A model generated the notes under the pieces. The model saw only the letters and a list, made by a program, of their open reading frames with translations. It did not search any database and was not told where the DNA came from. This document shows, in pieces, positions 3,001-16,894 of a DNA stretch of 21,851 nt. The stretch spans positions 1-21,851 of the IMG/VR virus record IMGVR_UViG_3300025771_000224; one strand, given 5' to 3'. The stretch comes from a virus. A program made the translations under genes and the position numbers. Position 1 is the stretch's first letter, and every line of letters begins with the position of its first letter.

Positions 3001-6000
3001 ACTGTTGTAATACCAGTTTGAGCATCAAAAACAGCATCTACAACTGTAGTTCCCAACCCAACAGGATAACCACCCCATGAACAATTATTAATTACTGCTC
3101 TTGCAATATTGAATGAATAGTCAAAAGTTGATATAGTTTGCTGAACTTCTCCTGGATTTTTAAGGATTCCACTCTTCAATGTCCAATCTTCATTGTAGTA
3201 TGCTTTTCCTGAAGTAACTGATCTAGAATTACCACCTCTTGTAATATCATAAATTATTCCTCTCCAGACATCTTTAATATCATCAGCACAGTCATTACTT
3301 TCTAAAGTAACTCCATATCTAACTGCAGGAGCACCACTAGTTGAACCTGCACCAATCATACTAGTAACAATACCTACAAGTTGAGTAATTGTCGTTCCTA
3401 CACCTACACAACCACCCTCAACCTGTATTACCGAAAGATTCTTAACCTGAGATACGCTATTCCCAACACCCTGATATGAGATTGATGGGGTTAAATTATT
3501 AATTACATGTGTTGCAATACCTGCAGCATAATCAAGTGCAGCAATTGTTGCTTCCGAAACACCAACTCCAGTAATATGAATTAAACCACCAGAACTACTG
3601 AAATAAGAATAACCTGCACCAATTGATTTACGATTACTATTTGCCTTTAGATCATAAGACACTGCCTGCATAATGCTAACGACATCTTCTTTGCAATTTG
3701 TATAACTACTAATTCCAAGTGTAAAATTATATCCAGAGGGTGATGTTAGGAATCCAACTGCTTCAGCAGCAATGTAATTTAAATTCGAATCAATTAATCT
3801 TGCAGCATCTTGCTCTCTATGATTACCAGCAAATCCACTAAATCCACTGGTTAAGAAACCTACAGATTCTCTTGCAATATAATCAAGATTTATTCTAATC
3901 ATTCTTGCAGCATCAAAGAATCTGTCTGTTGATACTCCAAGTAATGGTTGTAGTGCAACAACAGCAGCACCATTTGTTACTGCAGGTCCAATAAAACTAC
4001 AATCAGTAATATGACATCCATTATTTACATAGATTAAATCTTGATCTAAGTTCTTGGGTGTAATTACACAGTTTCTAAGTTCAGTACCTTCAATAGAAAC
4101 TGTCTTGGCAAGAACAATTGGATTATCTTCAACATAAGTACCTGGGAATACTTTAATAGTATCTCCAAACACTGCAACAGATGCTGCTGCTTTAATTGTT
4201 TTCTTAGGATAGTTTTCTGCTAAACCAGTATTATCATCATTACCATTTTGTGATACGTAAATAGTTTTTCCAACTGGTTTATATGATTGAATTTCAACTT
4301 TACCTTTACCGGGAATTTGAGTTTCAAATATATCAATGCCAATACCAGGAACAATTTGAGTGACAATTCCAACTAAAGTATCACCAGAACCAAAATATTT
4401 TGTTGCGGTTGTAGTTCCAGCAACTGTTAAAGTTTCTGTTATTATACTCGTTCCGATTCCAACACTACCAGAAGAAGGATTATATACTAATTTTTCAGAT
4501 GAAACATATTCAAGATTTGTTGTTCCGCTTGTTTGTTCTAAGAATGATGGATAATATGTTTTATCAGTAGTATTATTATCTTGAACAAAAATTAAACCAG
4601 ACCCAGGTATTCCTTGTAAACCTTGTGTTCCCTGTGCTCCTTGCAGACCCTGGAGACCTTGAAGACCTTGGGTACCTTGAGGTCCTTGAGATCCAACACC
4701 TTGAAGACCTTGTGTACCCTGAGTTCCTTGAGTTCCTTGAAAACTTTGAACACCCTGGACTCCCTGGACTCCCTGGACTCCTTGAGTACCTTGGCGTCCT
4801 TGAAGTCCTTGAAGTCCTTGGGTTCCTTGATTTCCCTGAACTCCCTGATTTCCTTGAGTGCCTTGAGTACCTTGATTTCCTTGAGTACCTTGGAAATTAC
4901 TTAAAGATCCTTGAAGTCCTTGAAGTCCTTGAAGTCCTTGATTTCCTTGAAGTCCTTGATTTCCTTGAAGTCCTTGATTTCCCTGAACTCCTTGATTTCC
5001 TTGACGACCTTGAACACCTTGAGAAGATTGAAGTCCTTGAGTACCTTGGAAATTACTTAATGTTCCTTGAAGTCCCTGATTTCCCTGAGCTCCTTGATTT
5101 CCTTGAGAAGATTGGAGTCCTTGGGAACCTTGATTACCTTGAGTACCTTGGAAATTACTTAAAGATCCTTGAAGTCCTTGAGCACCTTGAGCATTTTGAA
5201 GACCTTGGGAACCTTGAGCACCCTGACGCCCCTGAACTCCTTGATTTCCCTGAGCTCCTTGTGAACCTTGGCGTCCTTGAGCACCTTGATTTCCTTGAGT
5301 ACCTTGGAAATTACTTAATGTCCCCTGAGTACCTTGTCTACCTTGACTACCTTGAAGTCCTTGATTTCCCTGAAGTCCTTGATTTCCTTGAGCACCTTGA
5401 TTTCCTTGAGTACCTTGGAAATTACTGAGATTGCCTTGAGTACCTTGGAAATTACTTAAAGATCCTTGAAGTCCTTGAGCACCTTGGCGTCCTTGAAGTC
5501 CTTGAGCACCTTGAGTTCCTTGAGTACCTTGGAAATTACTTAAAGATCCTTGAAGTCCTTGAGCACCTTGGCGTCCTTGTAAACCTTGGAGTCCTTGTAA
5601 ACCTTGGAGTCCTTGAGTACCTTGGAAATTACTTAAAGATCCTTGAAGTCCTTGAAGTCCTTGAAGTCCTTGGAGTCCTTGATTTCCTTGGGTACCCCCA
5701 CCTTGAAGTCCTTGATTTCCTTGAGTACCCTGGCGTCCTTGAGCACCTTGATTTCCTTGAGTACCCTGGCGTCCTTGAAGTCCTTGATGTCCTTGAAGTC
5801 CTTGATGTCCTTGAAGACCTTGAGTACCCTGCCAACCAGAACCTTGAAGTCCTTGAAGTCCTTGAAGTCCTTGGAGTCCTTGATGTCCTTGAAGTCCTTG
5901 TGAACCTTGGCGTCCTTGTAAACCTTGGAGTCCTTGAAGTCCTTGAAATCCTTGTAAACCTTGGAGTCCTTGATTTCCTTGAAGTCCTTGATTTCCCTGA

Positions 6001-10125: not shown

Positions 10126-11450
10126 TTATTTTTTTGCTGTTTTTTCCCAAAAGTATCTCTAACTAATTTCATAGATGTATATGATCTATTGACATCAAAA
10201 TGATGACATAATTCTTTTATCATATATAGTCCACTTGTTTCTGGATCATACTCTTTTGCATCAGATTCTGAAATTTTAGGAAAATTGCATTCGATAATAT
10301 CACCAGCTCTTAAATTAGTGTTGCAAGAAATCATAACATCTAGAGATTGAGTAAATAACACGTTATACCTCATCAATCCCTGAGATTGATATTTTCCAGG
10401 ATCAGCATTTTCCTTAGTAGAAACACCTTGTTCCATAGTACCAATATCTAATACTTGAGATATAATTCTTGTTGGTACATCTCCAAGACCAGTATTAGAA
10501 CTATTTGAAATTTTTGGAAGTTTCAATTCGCTCCCCAAATTATTAGTCTTCTTTGAATAATCTGATAATTTAAAAACACTATTTGTAAATGAAAAATTAA
10601 GAAGATTGAAATAAGACCTTTGACTACAATATGTCCCCATCCTTAATTTTTCAATTAGATTTTGATTTCTGTCTACTAAGTAATTTAGAATTCTAAAGTC
10701 ATCATCAACTTTATTAGTATCGTCATAATTATTTGTAACTTCACTGTGAGTGTAAGTTGCCTTTGCCGCTTGATCATTTAATCCATCAATTGATCTAAAT
10801 TGAAATCCATCCCTAGTCTGATAAAATAAGAATCCTGCTGTTCCATCTCCAGAAGATACTGGTACTCCTTTTGAAGCTAACCACACCAAAACTGTAAATG
10901 GTTTCCGCATATTTCCAATAAATCCATAATTATTGGATGTTTTATCAATTGTACCTATTTTGTCAGTTTTTAAATAATCGGAAAGAATACTTCTAACAGA
11001 AGTATCAATACTTGATGATGATGGATATTTTTTAGGTACTCTAGATGTCTCATTAGTAATTGCCTCTCTAGAGACTAAATGCAAAGTAAAACTTTCTTTT
11101 TGAGTTTCTGAAATGACATCAGAAATACTAGATACATAAAAATAGTCTTGAGATTTTTTTGAAAAATCTAGTCCAGGATTATTTTTACTATTTCCTGAAA
11201 TTTTTACCGCCAATCGTTCACCACCACGAAGTGGAAGACCATTATATAAAGACTGTTTACTTCCATCTGGATTATCTTTTGATGATATTGTATTTCCAGT
11301 ATTAACTACTTTAACTTTTGCAGTTATTGTGGGTGAAAAAATATCTTCAAAGTATTCAAAAGAAATTACACCAGAAGTAATGTCAACTGTTCTACTTCGA
11401 TCATTAGACTCTATAAAAAACTCTTCGAATATGGATTGTTTTGTTGACAT
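10122..11450 (-). CDS. 27: gp27-like baseplate hub protein
   Basis: This 442-aa protein lies directly upstream of the gp5-like gene, as gene 27-type hub genes do in many myoviruses. The N-terminus (VDITSGVISFEYFEDIFSP, then a region with LPLRGGERLAVKISG) has the beta-rich pattern of hub proteins whose domains form the torus joining tube and spike. A central region with LVWLASKGVP followed by FLFYQTRDGFQFRSIDGL matches the second tube-like domain of hub proteins. Near the C-terminus come LRAGDIIECNFPKIS and GLYMIKELCHHFD. T4 gp27 is somewhat shorter (about 390 aa). The start codon overlaps the stop of the lysozyme gene by one base (TAATG). I did not find a single diagnostic gp27 motif, so the assignment leans on order, size and fold-like patterns. 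Confidence 0.68.
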   Translation of the reverse strand: MSTKQSIFEEFFIESNDRSRTVDITSGVISFEYFEDIFSPTITAKVKVVNTGNTISSKDNPDGSKQSLYNGLPLRGGERLAVKISGNSKNNPGLDFSKKSQDYFYVSSISDVISETQKESFTLHLVSREAITNETSRVPKKYPSSSSIDTSVRSILSDYLKTDKIGTIDKTSNNYGFIGNMRKPFTVLVWLASKGVPVSSGDGTAGFLFYQTRDGFQFRSIDGLNDQAAKATYTHSEVTNNYDDTNKVDDDFRILNYLVDRNQNLIEKLRMGTYCSQRSYFNLLNFSFTNSVFKLSDYSKKTNNLGSELKLPKISNSSNTGLGDVPTRIISQVLDIGTMEQGVSTKENADPGKYQSQGLMRYNVLFTQSLDVMISCNTNLRAGDIIECNFPKISESDAKEYDPETSGLYMIKELCHHFDVNRSYTSMKLVRDTFGKKQQKNK

Positions 11451-13384
11451 TATAGATAAGACAAATCTAGTAGAATTTTTTGTTTAATAAATCTATTTAA
11501 CACATTAAGTTCATTCAAAAATTGACCCTGTATTTGTTTTTGTGGTTTTGGCATTGTTGCCGAAACCACTTGTTGTGGTGTAGGTGCTGGAGGATCAACA
11601 ACAACAATTTGCTGCCCCTTTCTTTCTGGAGTTATTGATTGTGGTATTTGCGATTTTACCACTGGATACAAAGTAGATGTTTTTTGTTGACTTACACCTT
11701 CAGTTGCCTTTGATCCGGGGGCACCATGCGATACAGTAATTCCACCAGTACCGATAATTTCTGCTTCTCTACCATAACCACCTCGATAATAAACTTCACC
11801 AACAGCGAACGGAAATTTAGTTGCGGATCCTACTTGAGATGGGAAAGTTTGTTTTACATTTGGATTATGCTCTTGAATATCAACAGCAGCACTACTTCTT
11901 GCACCATGGGCTTTTTGTTCTGCAGATATCAAACCTTTTAATTTTTGATCGTCGGTATTTTTATCTGCATTTTTTTTAATATTACCAAAATGAATCCAAG
12001 ACCCTCTAGCAAACATTGCCTTTGCTGCTCTAAAAGCAACTTCACGAATATTTGCCAACTGTTGAGCAGTTGGATTTGCAGTTTTAGCATCTATATGAAA
12101 GTGAGTTGCATATGTAGTTTCACCACCTTTTCCAGATCCCCCCTGAATAAGTCCACCAGATCCGGTTTGTGGTATTAGATTCATAGTTCCAGTAGATACT
12201 GGTCTTGGTGGTGTTGGTGTTGGTGTTGGTGTTTTTGGTGGTTGTGATTGTCCACTAGGTTTAAAATTTCTAATAAATGCATTATGCTGCTGTTTTCTTG
12301 CACCTCTAACTCTTTCGGAAGGTCTCTCCCATTTTACCATCCACCACTGTGCCGCATCTTCTGGTGAAGAAAACTGTGTCTTCAAATATGCAGGACCAGC
12401 ATCCTCAACTAGAGCATAGTCTAACTGCCCTTTCCAGTTTCTCTGCCAGTTTGGAACATTTGCTGCCATTCTATCACTTCTTGGTTTCTTCCATTGGAAC
12501 AAACCACCAGCACCACCATCATCACCACTCTTTGCACCAACTCTAAACTTACTTTCTCCCTCAATGTTTGCAAGAATACCCATGGCATGGGCATGAGAAA
12601 TTCCCTTTTGCCTTAAATATGAATAAACTGCTTGTGGACTTACTCTACCACCAGAAGTTTCTGGTTCTTTAGTCTCTCCAGGTTGATATGGTTCAGGGTA
12701 CAAAGTATCTGGTGCAGGTTGACCTGGTAGTGGTGCCTCTTCACCGGTATCAATAGATTGAGTCAAAGGTGTTGTCAATAAACTATATCCTTCCAGTATT
12801 TCTCTGTTTACCGATTCTATCGCATCATTCAATTCAGTAAGCGATGTTCTTACTCTATTGGATTGATCAGTAAAATCCAAATTTAAAATATTCGACCCCA
12901 CACTATGAAGAAGTGTGCCAAATCGTTGTACTATTGTGATCATTCCTCCCAAAAAATTTGAGATTATAGATCCCATCTTATAGACTCTAGAGATAAATTC
13001 TTTACCTATAAAAATAATAGTAGGTAAATTTTCAACAAGCCATCCAGCAGTAATAAATCCCAAAAATCCAAGCAATCTTTGAAAAGGACCTGCAGAACTA
13101 TTCGAAATCATAGATGCAGATGCTTTAAATGTATTTGTAGAAACTTTAGATGCTTCGATTCTGTCCTCTATAATTTTTCTTTTTTCATTTTCTCTACGTC
13201 TTAAATCTAAAATATTTGACTTATATGCTATCGTTTCCTTAAGTTTTATATTACTAGATATTACTTGATTTATTTTATTGACAGAAATATTGGATTTTAA
13301 TATTTCTGTTTTAGCTGAAGAAATAGATTTATTAGCACTTTGAGTAAATCTAAACGATGATCTAAGTGAATCTGATATTGCCAT
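11450..13384 (-). CDS. Tail lysozyme-bearing hub/tape-like protein
   Basis: This 644-aa multidomain protein has a helical, charged N-terminus (residues 1-95), a hydrophobic stretch with LLGFLGFITAGWLVENLP and a following helical segment (about 101-165), and a linker. A phage tail lysozyme-type domain follows at about 248-375. The domain shows AMGILANIEGES, where Glu277 of the NIxxES motif is the probable catalytic acid, then GGLFQWKKPR, an aromatic WQRNW stretch and AAQWWMVKWERP. A Thr-Pro linker (about 384-393) leads to a second conserved domain at about 422-555 with THFHID, AHGARSSAAVDIQE and TVSHG. The C-terminus is Gln/Pro-rich. The likely job is cutting host peptidoglycan during injection, the role that T4 builds into gp5. 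It sits one base after the upstream gene. It could also serve as part of the tape measure, since its N-terminus resembles that of the preceding protein. Confidence 0.8.
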   Translation of the reverse strand: MAISDSLRSSFRFTQSANKSISSAKTEILKSNISVNKINQVISSNIKLKETIAYKSNILDLRRRENEKRKIIEDRIEASKVSTNTFKASASMISNSSAGPFQRLLGFLGFITAGWLVENLPTIIFIGKEFISRVYKMGSIISNFLGGMITIVQRFGTLLHSVGSNILNLDFTDQSNRVRTSLTELNDAIESVNREILEGYSLLTTPLTQSIDTGEEAPLPGQPAPDTLYPEPYQPGETKEPETSGGRVSPQAVYSYLRQKGISHAHAMGILANIEGESKFRVGAKSGDDGGAGGLFQWKKPRSDRMAANVPNWQRNWKGQLDYALVEDAGPAYLKTQFSSPEDAAQWWMVKWERPSERVRGARKQQHNAFIRNFKPSGQSQPPKTPTPTPTPPRPVSTGTMNLIPQTGSGGLIQGGSGKGGETTYATHFHIDAKTANPTAQQLANIREVAFRAAKAMFARGSWIHFGNIKKNADKNTDDQKLKGLISAEQKAHGARSSAAVDIQEHNPNVKQTFPSQVGSATKFPFAVGEVYYRGGYGREAEIIGTGGITVSHGAPGSKATEGVSQQKTSTLYPVVKSQIPQSITPERKGQQIVVVDPPAPTPQQVVSATMPKPQKQIQGQFLNELNVLNRFIKQKILLDLSYL

Positions 13385-13385
13385 C

Positions 13386-15179
13386 TTAGATTACCACGTT
13401 GTAATTTAAAAGAGAATATAATATATAAAAATTATCTGGATTTGACGATTTTATCAATGGAACATCAGTAACACTTTCATCATAATTTGGTTGAGATTGA
13501 GTAGATACTTGTTGTTTTGGTTGTGGTTGCTGTGCAACTATTACATCTGGTTTTGGTTCTGGTAAAACATCAATTTTAGGAACTTCTTTAGTTACTGCTG
13601 AAATTTCCGGTTCTTTAGTTTGTGTGGTTACTTTTGGTTCCTCTAACCGCATTTTACTCCAATCATACCCCTTTGATTCTGCCCATTGCTTTGCTTGTTG
13701 TTTATCATCATCACTCATTTTTGACCAAGCACTTTCAATTTTCCCTCTAGCAAGAGGATTATCTTTGTATTGCCAAGCTCTTTCATATTGTTTAACCTTT
13801 TCCTCAGGTATTACAAGGGAAGGTTGTGATTTCATCAAATTCTCTTGAGGTTCTATCTTAGTTTCCTGAGATGGTTGAGAACTTTGGGATTTTATTAGTG
13901 GTGTTGAAAGTGGTGGTGTTACAGGAGTTACTGTATTTGAAGTTGGGTTTGGTGGATTAGAAGTGGTGGTGGTAGAATTTGCAGCAGTAGAAGTGGTAGA
14001 TGGTTTTGAAGTTGGGTTTGGTGGATTAGAAGTGGTGGTGGTAGAATTTGCAGCAGTAGAAGTGGTAGATGGTTCGGATTTTTCAGTATTATTCGCTCCA
14101 GTCATAGTATCGGATAATTTTCCCCCCATATCCCAACCCAACATACCAGCACCAATTGTAAGTGGAAATTTTACAATTCCGGGAAGAGGTAATTTAGAAG
14201 TTACTTTCATTGCAGTGCTGGAAGCAGCCATACTTGACACGCTTCCAGCGCCTGCCTGAAGATTAGTTTGTCCTTCTGATTTTCTACCTAAAAAATCTAT
14301 ACCTCCAGCGGCTAAAGTAAATGCATTAGATGCAATAGAAGTTGCCTTAGAAAAAAATCCAGAAGTTGGTTTTGGAGTTGAAGAAGACTTTGGTGATGCA
14401 GAAGATGAAGGAACTGGTTTTTTATTGCCACCAACTAACCGCCTAATTGCATTTATTCCTGATACAAATGGAGCAGTTATAACTTTACCAATAAGAGATA
14501 ATATTTTACCTGTTAATCCTACAATTAACTTTATTGCTAATCCAATTCCACCATTAATTGCAAATAAAACTCCACCCGCTATTCCCAGTTTCTGTAATAT
14601 ATTATTTTTAATTTCAGTTAATTTATCAGTATCACCTTCATTTTGGGCATCAAAATATTTTACTATTTCATTAGTTAACCAACCGGTAAATAAAAATAAT
14701 AAAGAACGTTTAATATTTTCAAACATGTTAGTAACTTTTGGTGCCAATTTTTGAACTGGTACCACAAGAGCTGCCTGGATTCTATTTTCAATTTCGTTTT
14801 CTTTTCCTACTCGTACTTCCTGTTCAGTATATCGTCGATTTTTTTCCAGATCTGCATTTAGTCTTGCTTGGTCTCCAGCAGCATCTTTTTCGAGTAATTG
14901 AGCAATAGTAGTAAGACCAGCATTTAAAGTTACTATCTGCTGGTTTAAATTGTTAATTTGAGTGTTAACACCAATTAATGACTCTTGATTAGTTTGTATT
15001 AACTCTAATTTTTGCTTATTATCATTTACATACTGAGATATAAAACTATCTCGATTAAAAGCAGTGCCAGATATTCTCGTTTTATTAAATATTGCCTGTC
15101 TTACTTCTTTAGACAATGGAGATCCTGTAATGGGATCTACCCCACTTGAAGCAACTGAATTTAAATCAACCTCAGCCAT
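13386..15179 (-). CDS. Probable tape-measure or hub-core protein (gp29/gp28 position)
   Basis: This 597-aa protein is encoded directly after the gp26-like/frameshift pair, where T4-like phages carry hub-core and tape-measure genes. Residues about 45-135 read as a coiled coil (Gln/Asn/Glu-rich, including INNLNQQIVTLNAGLTTIAQ). A hydrophobic LLFLFTGWLTNEIVKYF stretch lies at about 160-176, and further membrane-like segments (LGIAGGVLFAINGGIGLAIK, IGKVITAPF) at about 198-240. Residues about 367-414 are Ser/Thr/Pro/Asn low complexity caused by a 69-bp tandem duplication. A Gln/Pro/Glu-rich tail includes an AWxxxxxxxxDKQQAKxWAESKGYDW helical piece. T4 gp29 has a similar length (590 aa), but I see no sequence proof of homology. 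The ATG overlaps the upstream small ORF by eight bases, consistent with coupled translation. Confidence 0.6.
   Translation of the reverse strand: MAEVDLNSVASSGVDPITGSPLSKEVRQAIFNKTRISGTAFNRDSFISQYVNDNKQKLELIQTNQESLIGVNTQINNLNQQIVTLNAGLTTIAQLLEKDAAGDQARLNADLEKNRRYTEQEVRVGKENEIENRIQAALVVPVQKLAPKVTNMFENIKRSLLFLFTGWLTNEIVKYFDAQNEGDTDKLTEIKNNILQKLGIAGGVLFAINGGIGLAIKLIVGLTGKILSLIGKVITAPFVSGINAIRRLVGGNKKPVPSSSASPKSSSTPKPTSGFFSKATSIASNAFTLAAGGIDFLGRKSEGQTNLQAGAGSVSSMAASSTAMKVTSKLPLPGIVKFPLTIGAGMLGWDMGGKLSDTMTGANNTEKSEPSTTSTAANSTTTTSNPPNPTSKPSTTSTAANSTTTTSNPPNPTSNTVTPVTPPLSTPLIKSQSSQPSQETKIEPQENLMKSQPSLVIPEEKVKQYERAWQYKDNPLARGKIESAWSKMSDDDKQQAKQWAESKGYDWSKMRLEEPKVTTQTKEPEISAVTKEVPKIDVLPEPKPDVIVAQQPQPKQQVSTQSQPNYDESVTDVPLIKSSNPDNFYILYSLLNYNVVI
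13936..14073. repeat. Perfect 69-bp tandem duplication
   Basis: Two back-to-back copies, 13936-14004 and 14005-14073, are identical over all 69 bases. Each encodes 23 residues of Ser/Thr/Asn/Pro-rich linker (TSTAANSTTTTSNPPNP is the core) in the tape-measure-like protein. The unit keeps frame. Identity at every base, silent positions included, points to a recent duplication. Confidence 0.97.
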
Positions 15180-15345
15180 TAGCGTTATTCTTTAGGTTTT
15201 CCTCTTCAATATATTGTTGAAGAAGGGAAATATAAACTTCCCTTTCCCAAGGAATCATATTTTCTATCTCTGTCAAAGAGTATTTATGATGCTGAATGAG
15301 AGCAAAATTAACTTTATAATATGACTCAATAGATTCATGAGCCAT
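15172..15345 (-). CDS. Small tail-chaperone-like ORF downstream of gp26 (gene 51 position)
   Basis: This 57-aa ORF starts at ATG 15345, two bases past the TAG of the gp26-like gene, and its TGA overlaps the ATG of the next gene by eight bases. The product is helical and acidic, with a central IPWEREVYISLLQQYIEEE stretch; short IPWERE-type helices of this kind are common in small phage tail-assembly proteins. Its position matches T4 gene 51, but the T4 protein is much longer, so I do not claim homology. It lies exactly in the -1 frame of gp26. A slippery heptamer at the end of gp26 would fuse it to gp26 through Arg-Leu-Val, giving a product of about 298 aa. No good ribosome-binding site stands just before its own ATG, which favours synthesis as a fusion or by coupled reinitiation. 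Confidence 0.75.
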   Translation of the reverse strand: MAHESIESYYKVNFALIQHHKYSLTEIENMIPWEREVYISLLQQYIEEENLKNNANG

Positions 15346-15374
15346 AACTAGGCGAAAAAACTAGACAATCCCTC
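15321..15374 (-). promoter_or_regulatory. Predicted -1 programmed frameshift signal (gp26 to small ORF)
   Basis: On the minus strand three elements line up. A Shine-Dalgarno-like GAGGGA lies at 15374-15369. Eight bases later comes the slippery heptamer T TTT TTC (15360-15354), in the correct frame (codons AGT TTT TTC). After an 8-base spacer there is a stem-loop at 15345-15321, with 8-bp arms ATGGCTCA/TGAGTCAT (one G-U pair) around a 9-base loop. A -1 slip skips the TAG at 15350-15348 and reads CGC CTA GTT ATG straight into the small ORF. The layout parallels dnaX-type signals and the lambda G/GT chaperone frameshift. Function is inferred; the elements themselves are read directly. Confidence 0.75.
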
Positions 15375-16067
15375 AATTACAATGTCACTCTCTACATCAG
15401 TGTTTGGATTTCTAACTTTTATTGTATGGGAAAGTTTTGGCATAGTTTCAAAAAACTTTTCAATCATCTTAAATTGATTTGAAGTTAATTGCTCAAGAAA
15501 TCCAATAAGTTCTTTTTTTGTACAATCAGAAGCAGACCAAGATTCCTCTTCATTATAAATTTGCTCAATACATGAACATATTAATTCAAATGTATCATCA
15601 ACACTAATTTCTTGACCGTTTGCAAAATTAGTTTTCACAAATTCTTTCATGGAAGGATATTTCATCCTAATCGATAAATTACCATCAAGTTGAATATCCC
15701 GAGAGTGATCATCACCAATTTCTACATTAATTTCATCAATATTAATACTAACTGGTACCTGAGTCTTTCCATCATCTGGACATGTAATTAAAAGATCTAC
15801 AGACTCTCCTACAGATTTTCCCCGTATATTTAAAAACAAATATTCTATATCAAATGTTGAAAGATTCTCTACCTTTACTCCACGAGTTATAATACAATTG
15901 GAGATAACAGTTTTTATTGCCTCAGCGATTTGATTTGAATCCTCACTTTCCATCGCAATAATTAATATTTTTTCTTCTTTAACTAAAAAAGGTCTATACT
16001 TAATGCTTTTTTTTAATGATGGTATTTCCAACTCATATGTTGGTGTAGAAATGGCAGGTAATGGCAT
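15348..16067 (-). CDS. 26: gp26-like baseplate hub assembly protein / tail chaperone
   Basis: This 239-aa protein is of the T4 gp26 baseplate family. The N-terminus (ISTPTYELEIPSLKKSIKYRPFLVKEEKILIIAMES) and the following IAEAIKTVISNCI plus STFDIEYLFLNIRGKSVGE patterns are typical of this family in T4-like phages. The second half has a DDTFELICSCIEQIYNEEE segment and an ELIGFLEQLTSNQFKMIEKFFETMPKL helical region. T4 gp26 is close in size (about 208 aa) and is needed for hub assembly. Gene order here (gp26, a -1 frame extension, then a tape-measure-like gene) makes a chaperone role like lambda G attractive; that is inference. An AATAAATA late promoter lies 26 bases upstream of the ATG (16101-16094), and a GGGA motif lies just before the start. 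Confidence 0.85.
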   Translation of the reverse strand: MPLPAISTPTYELEIPSLKKSIKYRPFLVKEEKILIIAMESEDSNQIAEAIKTVISNCIITRGVKVENLSTFDIEYLFLNIRGKSVGESVDLLITCPDDGKTQVPVSINIDEINVEIGDDHSRDIQLDGNLSIRMKYPSMKEFVKTNFANGQEISVDDTFELICSCIEQIYNEEESWSASDCTKKELIGFLEQLTSNQFKMIEKFFETMPKLSHTIKVRNPNTDVESDIVIEGLSSFFA

Positions 16068-16093: not shown

Positions 16094-16101
16094 TATTTAT
16101 T
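16094..16101 (-). promoter_or_regulatory. Candidate late promoter for gp26
   Basis: Minus-strand AATAAATA fits the T4-like late promoter consensus (NATAAATA). It spans the stop codon of the upstream gene and lies 26 bases before the gp26 start, leaving a short leader with a GGGA ribosome-binding motif. It would give extra transcripts of the chaperone and downstream hub genes. Confidence 0.5.
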
Positions 16102-16894
16102 GCCTCTTGCCGTATAAAGATTCATATAATGTCAAATCGGAGGGAAATAATTCAACTCCATTAGAAGGTATTGAACCAGGAGATCTAGGTATTAATCTTT
16201 TTGAAGAATCTACTGTAGACGATTGTTTTGGTGTGGATGATTGTTTATTATTATCAGTATTTTGATAAATTGGAAGACTACTAATCTTTCCACAAACATA
16301 TCTTTCATATTGAAATGATGCAGATACAGTCATAACATTAGATGAACTATATGAAACTGGAATAGATGAGACACTTATTGGGAAAAGTCCAATAAAATTA
16401 TAGTTAAGTTCTCTCCTATAATCTCTCTCAAATTTTGTTATAGTAGTAAAATTTGACTTATAATATGATGGGTACTGCATTCTCACAAAATATGCATCAT
16501 GCCCCTGATTGATGGGTCCAGAAATTCCATCTATTGGATTATGAGATCCACTACTCATAAATTCCATCCAATGCTCTAAAAATTTTATTACTTTATATTT
16601 TTTATCAACATAAAACTCCATGTTAATTGGAGCATAAATTTTTGAATGTGCAAATTTTTCTTGAACACCTATATGATTATATACTTCACCAGATGCAAAT
16701 GAAAATGTTGGAAGAGTTGTTGATGAGCAAAGCAATCCCAAATCTTCATATATAAATCTCGCATCCACTCCTCTTTGTGAGAGATAAAATAATAATTCCG
16801 AACTTAGTCCACCAAATTTAACTTCATAGTGGGAAGTTTGAGCAACATTTGTAAAAAGTGGTTTAATATCGGATATTTTACGTGAATATGGCAC
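16097..16894 (-). CDS. 54: gp54-like baseplate tail-tube initiator
   Basis: First gene of the long minus-strand hub operon, 265 aa, starting at GTG 16894 with an AGGT ribosome-binding motif seven bases away. The protein looks like a tail-tube fold. It opens with HYEVKFGGLSSELLFYLSQRG. It then has MEFYVDKKYKVIKFLEHWMEFM and YPSYYKSNF, followed by LNYNFIGLFPISVSSIPVSY and VMTVSASFQYERYV. These patterns are typical of gp19/gp48/gp54-type tube and tube-initiator proteins. The last 55 residues are a Ser/Lys/Pro linker ending in LFPSDLTLYESLYGK. With a gp48-like gene in the divergent operon, gp54 is the more economical name. T4 gp54 is longer (320 aa). The tail tube itself (gp19) or a paralogue is less likely given the operon. 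Confidence 0.68.
   Translation of the reverse strand: MPYSRKISDIKPLFTNVAQTSHYEVKFGGLSSELLFYLSQRGVDARFIYEDLGLLCSSTTLPTFSFASGEVYNHIGVQEKFAHSKIYAPINMEFYVDKKYKVIKFLEHWMEFMSSGSHNPIDGISGPINQGHDAYFVRMQYPSYYKSNFTTITKFERDYRRELNYNFIGLFPISVSSIPVSYSSSNVMTVSASFQYERYVCGKISSLPIYQNTDNNKQSSTPKQSSTVDSSKRLIPRSPGSIPSNGVELFPSDLTLYESLYGKRQ

Follow-up and report, generated by a model that had tools for sequence, protein, structure and literature searches.

In the sequence of an uncultured T4-like cyanophage analysed here (the whole stretch of 21,851 nucleotides, hereafter the window), gp26 and the small ORF that follows it, 'gp51', very probably constitute one gene with two tail-assembly chaperones as its products: programmed −1 frameshifting would yield a long form of 298 aa beside a short one of 239 aa. 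From the junction and its relatives we infer that slippage occurs in the cell: the majority of ribosomes would end at the gp26 TAG and release the 239-aa short chaperone, and a minority would move back by one base at T TTT TTC and continue in the 'gp51' codons to complete the 298-aa long form. Slippage would be aided by pairing of an upstream GAGGG with 16S rRNA and by a hairpin just downstream. By analogy with lambda gpG/gpGT, the short and long forms probably coat the tape-measure protein and prepare it while the tail is being assembled.

Anatomy of the gp26–gp51 junction

The gp26 ORF lies on the minus strand (15348–16067; all window features below are on this strand) and encodes 239 residues that match the Pfam family T4_baseplate (PF12322, E 1.9e-74) and phrog_150 (E 7.8e-81). 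We take its product as the candidate short tail-assembly chaperone (TAC-N), an analogue of lambda gpG. The 3′ end of gp26 reads ATT GAG GGA TTG TCT AGT TTT TTC GCC TAG, followed by TT ATG GCT CAT. The slippery heptamer T TTT TTC occupies 15354–15360 within the zero-frame codons AGT TTT TTC, a phase that is right for simultaneous −1 slippage. Of 7113 codon positions in genes of the window, 5 carry an in-frame T TTT TTN, and the gp26 copy is the sole case at a gene end. A Shine-Dalgarno-like run inside gp26, GAGGGA (15369–15374), is a putative stimulator 8 nt 5′ of the heptamer, and a hairpin with a 9-bp stem and a 9-nt loop (15320–15346) is found 7 nt 3′ of it. From the heptamer, the −1 frame is open to a stop at 15172 (segment 15172–15354), reading ...SSFF-RLVMAHES... 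through RLV into the 57-aa ORF (15172–15345, with its ATG at 15343–15345), for a total of 298 residues. This −1 segment, the candidate C-terminal domain of the long form (TAC-C), matches phrog_634 (E 6.6e-27) and positions 239–278 of phrog_150 (E 3.3e-07).

Much of this arrangement had been described in a sequence-only reading of the same DNA, and it withstands re-examination: the heptamer is in the correct frame near the gp26 stop, GAGGGA stands eight bases upstream of it, translation is continuous into the 57-aa ORF, and the ORF lengths agree with the proposed products of about 239 and 298 aa. The stem-loop is present too, but it had been counted as 8 bp; an outer U-A pair brings the stem, which includes one G-U pair, to 9 bp. 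It covers the ATG of the small ORF, as was claimed, and no Shine-Dalgarno-like run precedes that ATG at normal spacing, in keeping with the reported lack of a ribosome-binding site.

Conservation of the slip site

We compared 80 gp26 relatives from viral contigs, 69 of which are non-redundant at less than 95% identity. The heptamer T TTT TTC stands exactly nine bases before the gp26 stop, with the −1 frame open, in 79 of the 80 relatives, the exception being locus L035. All 69 non-redundant relatives have TTT at codon −3 and TTC at codon −2; within the same genes, internal Phe-Phe is encoded by TTT TTC in 4/69 cases, and TTC makes up only a quarter of the other Phe codons. The third base of the preceding codon is likewise T in 69/69, though the residue may be Ser, Ala, Asn or Asp. 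Two further scans returned T TTT TTY at the same place in all 90 further unique loci. The −1 frame is short in only two of these junctions, in loci of about 2.2 kb that are apparently cut at the contig end. Because the heptamer is kept so consistently in both sets, a chance origin is untenable.

Beyond these loci, 11 annotated phages share the heptamer, each with a downstream −1 domain; several are distant, with protein identity falling to about 25%. At every heptamer locus compared, the −1 frame reads through into the same domain. These phages belong to Kyanoviridae, Straboviridae (Schizotequatrovirus, for whose relatives our scan comprised two loci only, and Ceceduovirus), Chakrabartyvirus, Menderavirus and Pootjesviridae, together with a Methylophilales phage. 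By host, the heptamer is seen in phages of Vibrio, Aeromonas, Pseudomonas, Stenotrophomonas, Agrobacterium and methylotrophs. Alignment of the junction across relatives had been proposed as a check by the sequence-only reading, and both heptamer and frame proved conserved. We also examined the relatives for a small ORF in another frame and for silent changes that break the heptamer, and what we found does not refute frameshifting.

Two departures from the general pattern were observed. Locus L035 (3001–3894) carries gp26 and gp51 fused in a single frame of 297 aa; relative to the 92%-identical L024, a 2-base difference removes the slippery site together with the stop of gp26. Such a fusion would yield only the long form and, known from one contig only, may be a natural variant or an error. 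In the Ackermannviridae-like Vibrio phages K413 (L089) and SD25 (L094), gp26 homologues lack the heptamer, and the gp26 stop overlaps the start of a −1-frame small ORF as TAATG, suggesting coupling in place of slippage.

Candidate stimulators of slippage

Upstream of the heptamer, the Glu codon of the GAG GGN run is GAG in 60 of the 69 non-redundant relatives, versus 31% GAG elsewhere in gp26. Within the window's clade, GGAGG occurs in the 24 nt before the heptamer at 37/71 loci, against 7/1919 background windows, and this enrichment falls at a dnaX-like spacing. Frameshifting in E. coli dnaX involves an upstream Shine-Dalgarno sequence, a heptamer and a downstream hairpin. The order of elements is the same in the window's cassette and the spacing similar; the gene, the heptamer and the purpose differ.

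Downstream, the hairpin has a predicted energy of −9.4 kcal/mol, and an equal or better fold is found in 0.26% of 27-nt windows on the same strand. The 111-nt junction region folds no better than shuffled sequences (z 0.23), and fold energy alone would therefore not prove the hairpin. Covariation supports it: among 68 sequences, 33 have changed on both sides at one pair, and one central pair is U-A in 31 sequences, G-C in 28 and A-U in 4. This signal is due largely to a single pair, since most of the others in the stem show little variation. Across the alignment, 91.5% of hairpin cells can pair, versus 25–43% when one arm is slid by 1–3 bases, and 0 of 500 shuffles did as well. The hairpin is nonetheless not universal. 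Its mean z is −3.5 in the window's clade, 0.12 in a P-RSM4-like clade (absent) and −1.2 in a third set (weak), and in the window's clade itself, four loci (L019, L020, L027 and L040) have lost both a hairpin arm and the ATG and kept the heptamer. We suggest tentatively, at just under even confidence, that the hairpin is a clade-specific addition to an older cassette of slip site plus Shine-Dalgarno run, maintained by compensatory change; it would stimulate slippage and block initiation at the embedded ATG, with stimulators turning over around a fixed slip site.

Fusion versus separate gene

The ATG of the small ORF is kept at 68 of the 71 loci of the window's clade, and this bears on two alternatives to frameshifting as the only route to gp51. 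In the first, the −1 frameshift would give the long form and the retained ATG some free gp51 in this clade, the hairpin setting the balance between them. Retention of the ATG here and not in other clades would suit such a dual output, as would its position under the hairpin. However, the ATG also serves as the Met codon of the fusion and belongs to the hairpin stem; these two roles suffice to account for its retention, and it is lost at the four loci that lack the hairpin arm. We consider production of both free and fused gp51 unlikely.

In the second, gp51 would be a separate 57-aa protein made by re-initiation at the ATG after the gp26 stop (translational coupling), and the slippery run would be incidental. 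The window's ATG does lie only 2 nt past the TAG and is retained as described, gp51 is annotated as its own gene in public records, and the TAATG overlaps of K413 and SD25 occur where the heptamer is missing. Yet this explanation accounts neither for the invariant TTT TTC nor for the invariant T before it, and the ATG is hidden in a hairpin with no Shine-Dalgarno sequence at normal spacing and has been lost within the window's clade. T4 gp51, moreover, carries the same domain fused. In two other clades, no ATG, GTG or TTG is present in the first nine codons of the −1 ORF at 32/44 and 28/36 loci, respectively; an independent start thus cannot be the general mode. On the strength of these clades we reject coupled re-initiation as the sole mechanism, and overall we give a separate gp51 very little credence.

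Finally, the single 297-aa frame of L035, two bases away from an L024-like sequence, could be taken to point to one long gene whose frame break arose through faulty sequencing or assembly. But no fewer than 69 non-redundant contigs show the same break, as do isolate genomes, and the unbroken variant is confined to one contig; the independent genomes rule out an error to near certainty.

Relation to T4 gp26 and gp51

In hhalign comparisons, the short form pairs with T4-type gp26 (E 4.8e-21) and the entire fusion with T4-type gp51 (E 9.9e-18, T4 gp51 residues 7–246), whose C-terminus matches the −1 segment (E 4.5e-06). Profile comparison also relates T4-type gp26 to gp51 (E 9.6e-15). With tblastn, the fusion is matched as one piece (23–283) in Aeromonas phage 31 gp51, and in 1334 phage records a match at a single locus spans 80% or more of T4 gp51. 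T4, Aeromonas phage 31 and Acj61 each have genes 26 and 51 placed back to back, one on either strand. The two T4 genes are thus separate and divergently oriented; in the window there is a single gp26 frame plus a −1 segment, and a complete gene of its own for the long form was not found in the viral record, where this locus is the single match. These homologies, together with the separate T4 genes, indicate that the T4 group encodes by two paralogous genes what the window phage would make by frameshifting. The end of T4 gene 26 has no heptamer: the T4 gp26 Phe-Phe that aligns to the slip site (L082, 3303–3929) is coded TTC TTT, and cannot be the same heptamer. In a review of T4, gp26 and gp51 are listed as hub assembly chaperones, with gp51 absent from the final particle (PMC3004832), which fits a reading of gp51 as the long chaperone.

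The proposal of the sequence-only reading that gp26 and the small ORF form a G/GT-type pair is strongly supported from several sides: the conserved heptamer and frame, the Shine-Dalgarno run, the covarying stem, the loss of start codons and the homology to a single-frame gp51.

A chaperone model predicted from gp26 rows only (pLDDT 77.6, with a low-confidence C-terminal domain) gave no significant match in a PDB fold search; its match to the HK97 chaperone 2ob9 was weak and local (E 2.2, probability 0.51, 62 columns at 2.8 Å). At the sequence level, gp26 found no matches in the PDB. Foldseek against a viral library retrieved mainly baseplate-hub gp26/gp51 relatives, adding nothing beyond sequence.

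Neighbouring tail genes

The junction lies in a minus-strand run of tail genes comprising a tail-tube family protein, gp26, the 57-aa ORF, proteins of 597 and 644 aa, and relatives of tail and hub-lysozyme proteins. The tail-tube family protein (16097–16894; phrog_45, E 2.4e-37) is encoded upstream of gp26. Downstream, the gene for the 597-aa protein (13386–15179) overlaps the end of the −1 ORF. It had been called tape-measure-like, and by position it is a candidate; no tape-measure profile matches it, the only match being phrog_3405, a family of unknown function. In relatives, the N-terminal part of this protein is conserved, and lengths are mostly 412–729 aa. The adjacent 644-aa protein (11450–13384), which has a tail lysozyme domain (Pfam Phage_lysozyme2, E 6.9e-19), is an alternative candidate, with a weak match to phrog_9570, 'tail length tape measure' (E 7.5e-09). 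The N-terminal parts of both proteins (11450–15179) match phrog_3405, and the two neighbours may be related to each other.

At locus L040, a reversed 217-aa ORF (3890–4543), assigned by eye as GIY-YIG-like and of homing-endonuclease type, lies between gp51 and the downstream gene. Relatives other than L040 have no gap at this point.

Discussion

The lambda heptamer is G GGA AAG. It differs from the T TTT TTC of the window, and no sequence homology is shown between the two systems. Lambda gpG/gpGT and other tail-chaperone frameshifts pair a short product with a low-level −1 fusion beside tail-tube and tape-measure genes (Xu, Hendrix and Duda 2004); the same pairing is predicted for the window, next to a tail-tube family gene and candidate tape-measure genes.

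Frameshifting of this kind has precedent in the T4-like phages themselves. The abstract of the study by Vladimirov, Gautam and Davidson (Virology 2022) is said to describe frameshifting as conserved in several T4-like groups, with T4 using genes 26 and 51. As summarised in the PRFect paper, the same 2022 study found that some T4-like phages have one short and one long chaperone gene and do not frameshift (PMC10885494), and a paper on phage Adele cites it for slippery poly-T runs in the TAC-N genes of T4-like phages (PMC12846349). The claim of the sequence-only reading that such a cassette was undescribed for the family does not hold, since, going by these two accounts, T4-like chaperones were reported in 2022 (PMID 34826709). 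On the same accounts, the TAC-N/TAC-NC proteins belong to the same gp26 and gp51 families as those of the window, and no difference in kind is established. Possibly new here are the clade-specific covarying hairpin, the Shine-Dalgarno bias and one natural in-frame fusion.

Most of the public records that we examined list cyanophage gp26 ('baseplate hub') and gp51 ('baseplate hub assembly catalyst') as separate genes, and in several the second gene is missed altogether. If the pair is treated as a single chaperone gene with a frameshift, hundreds of records would have their annotation corrected. The long-puzzling gp51 of T4 would gain a natural explanation as the long form of the chaperone, and these phages would form a natural series for comparing how slip site, Shine-Dalgarno run, hairpin and gene duplication each serve to fix a protein ratio.
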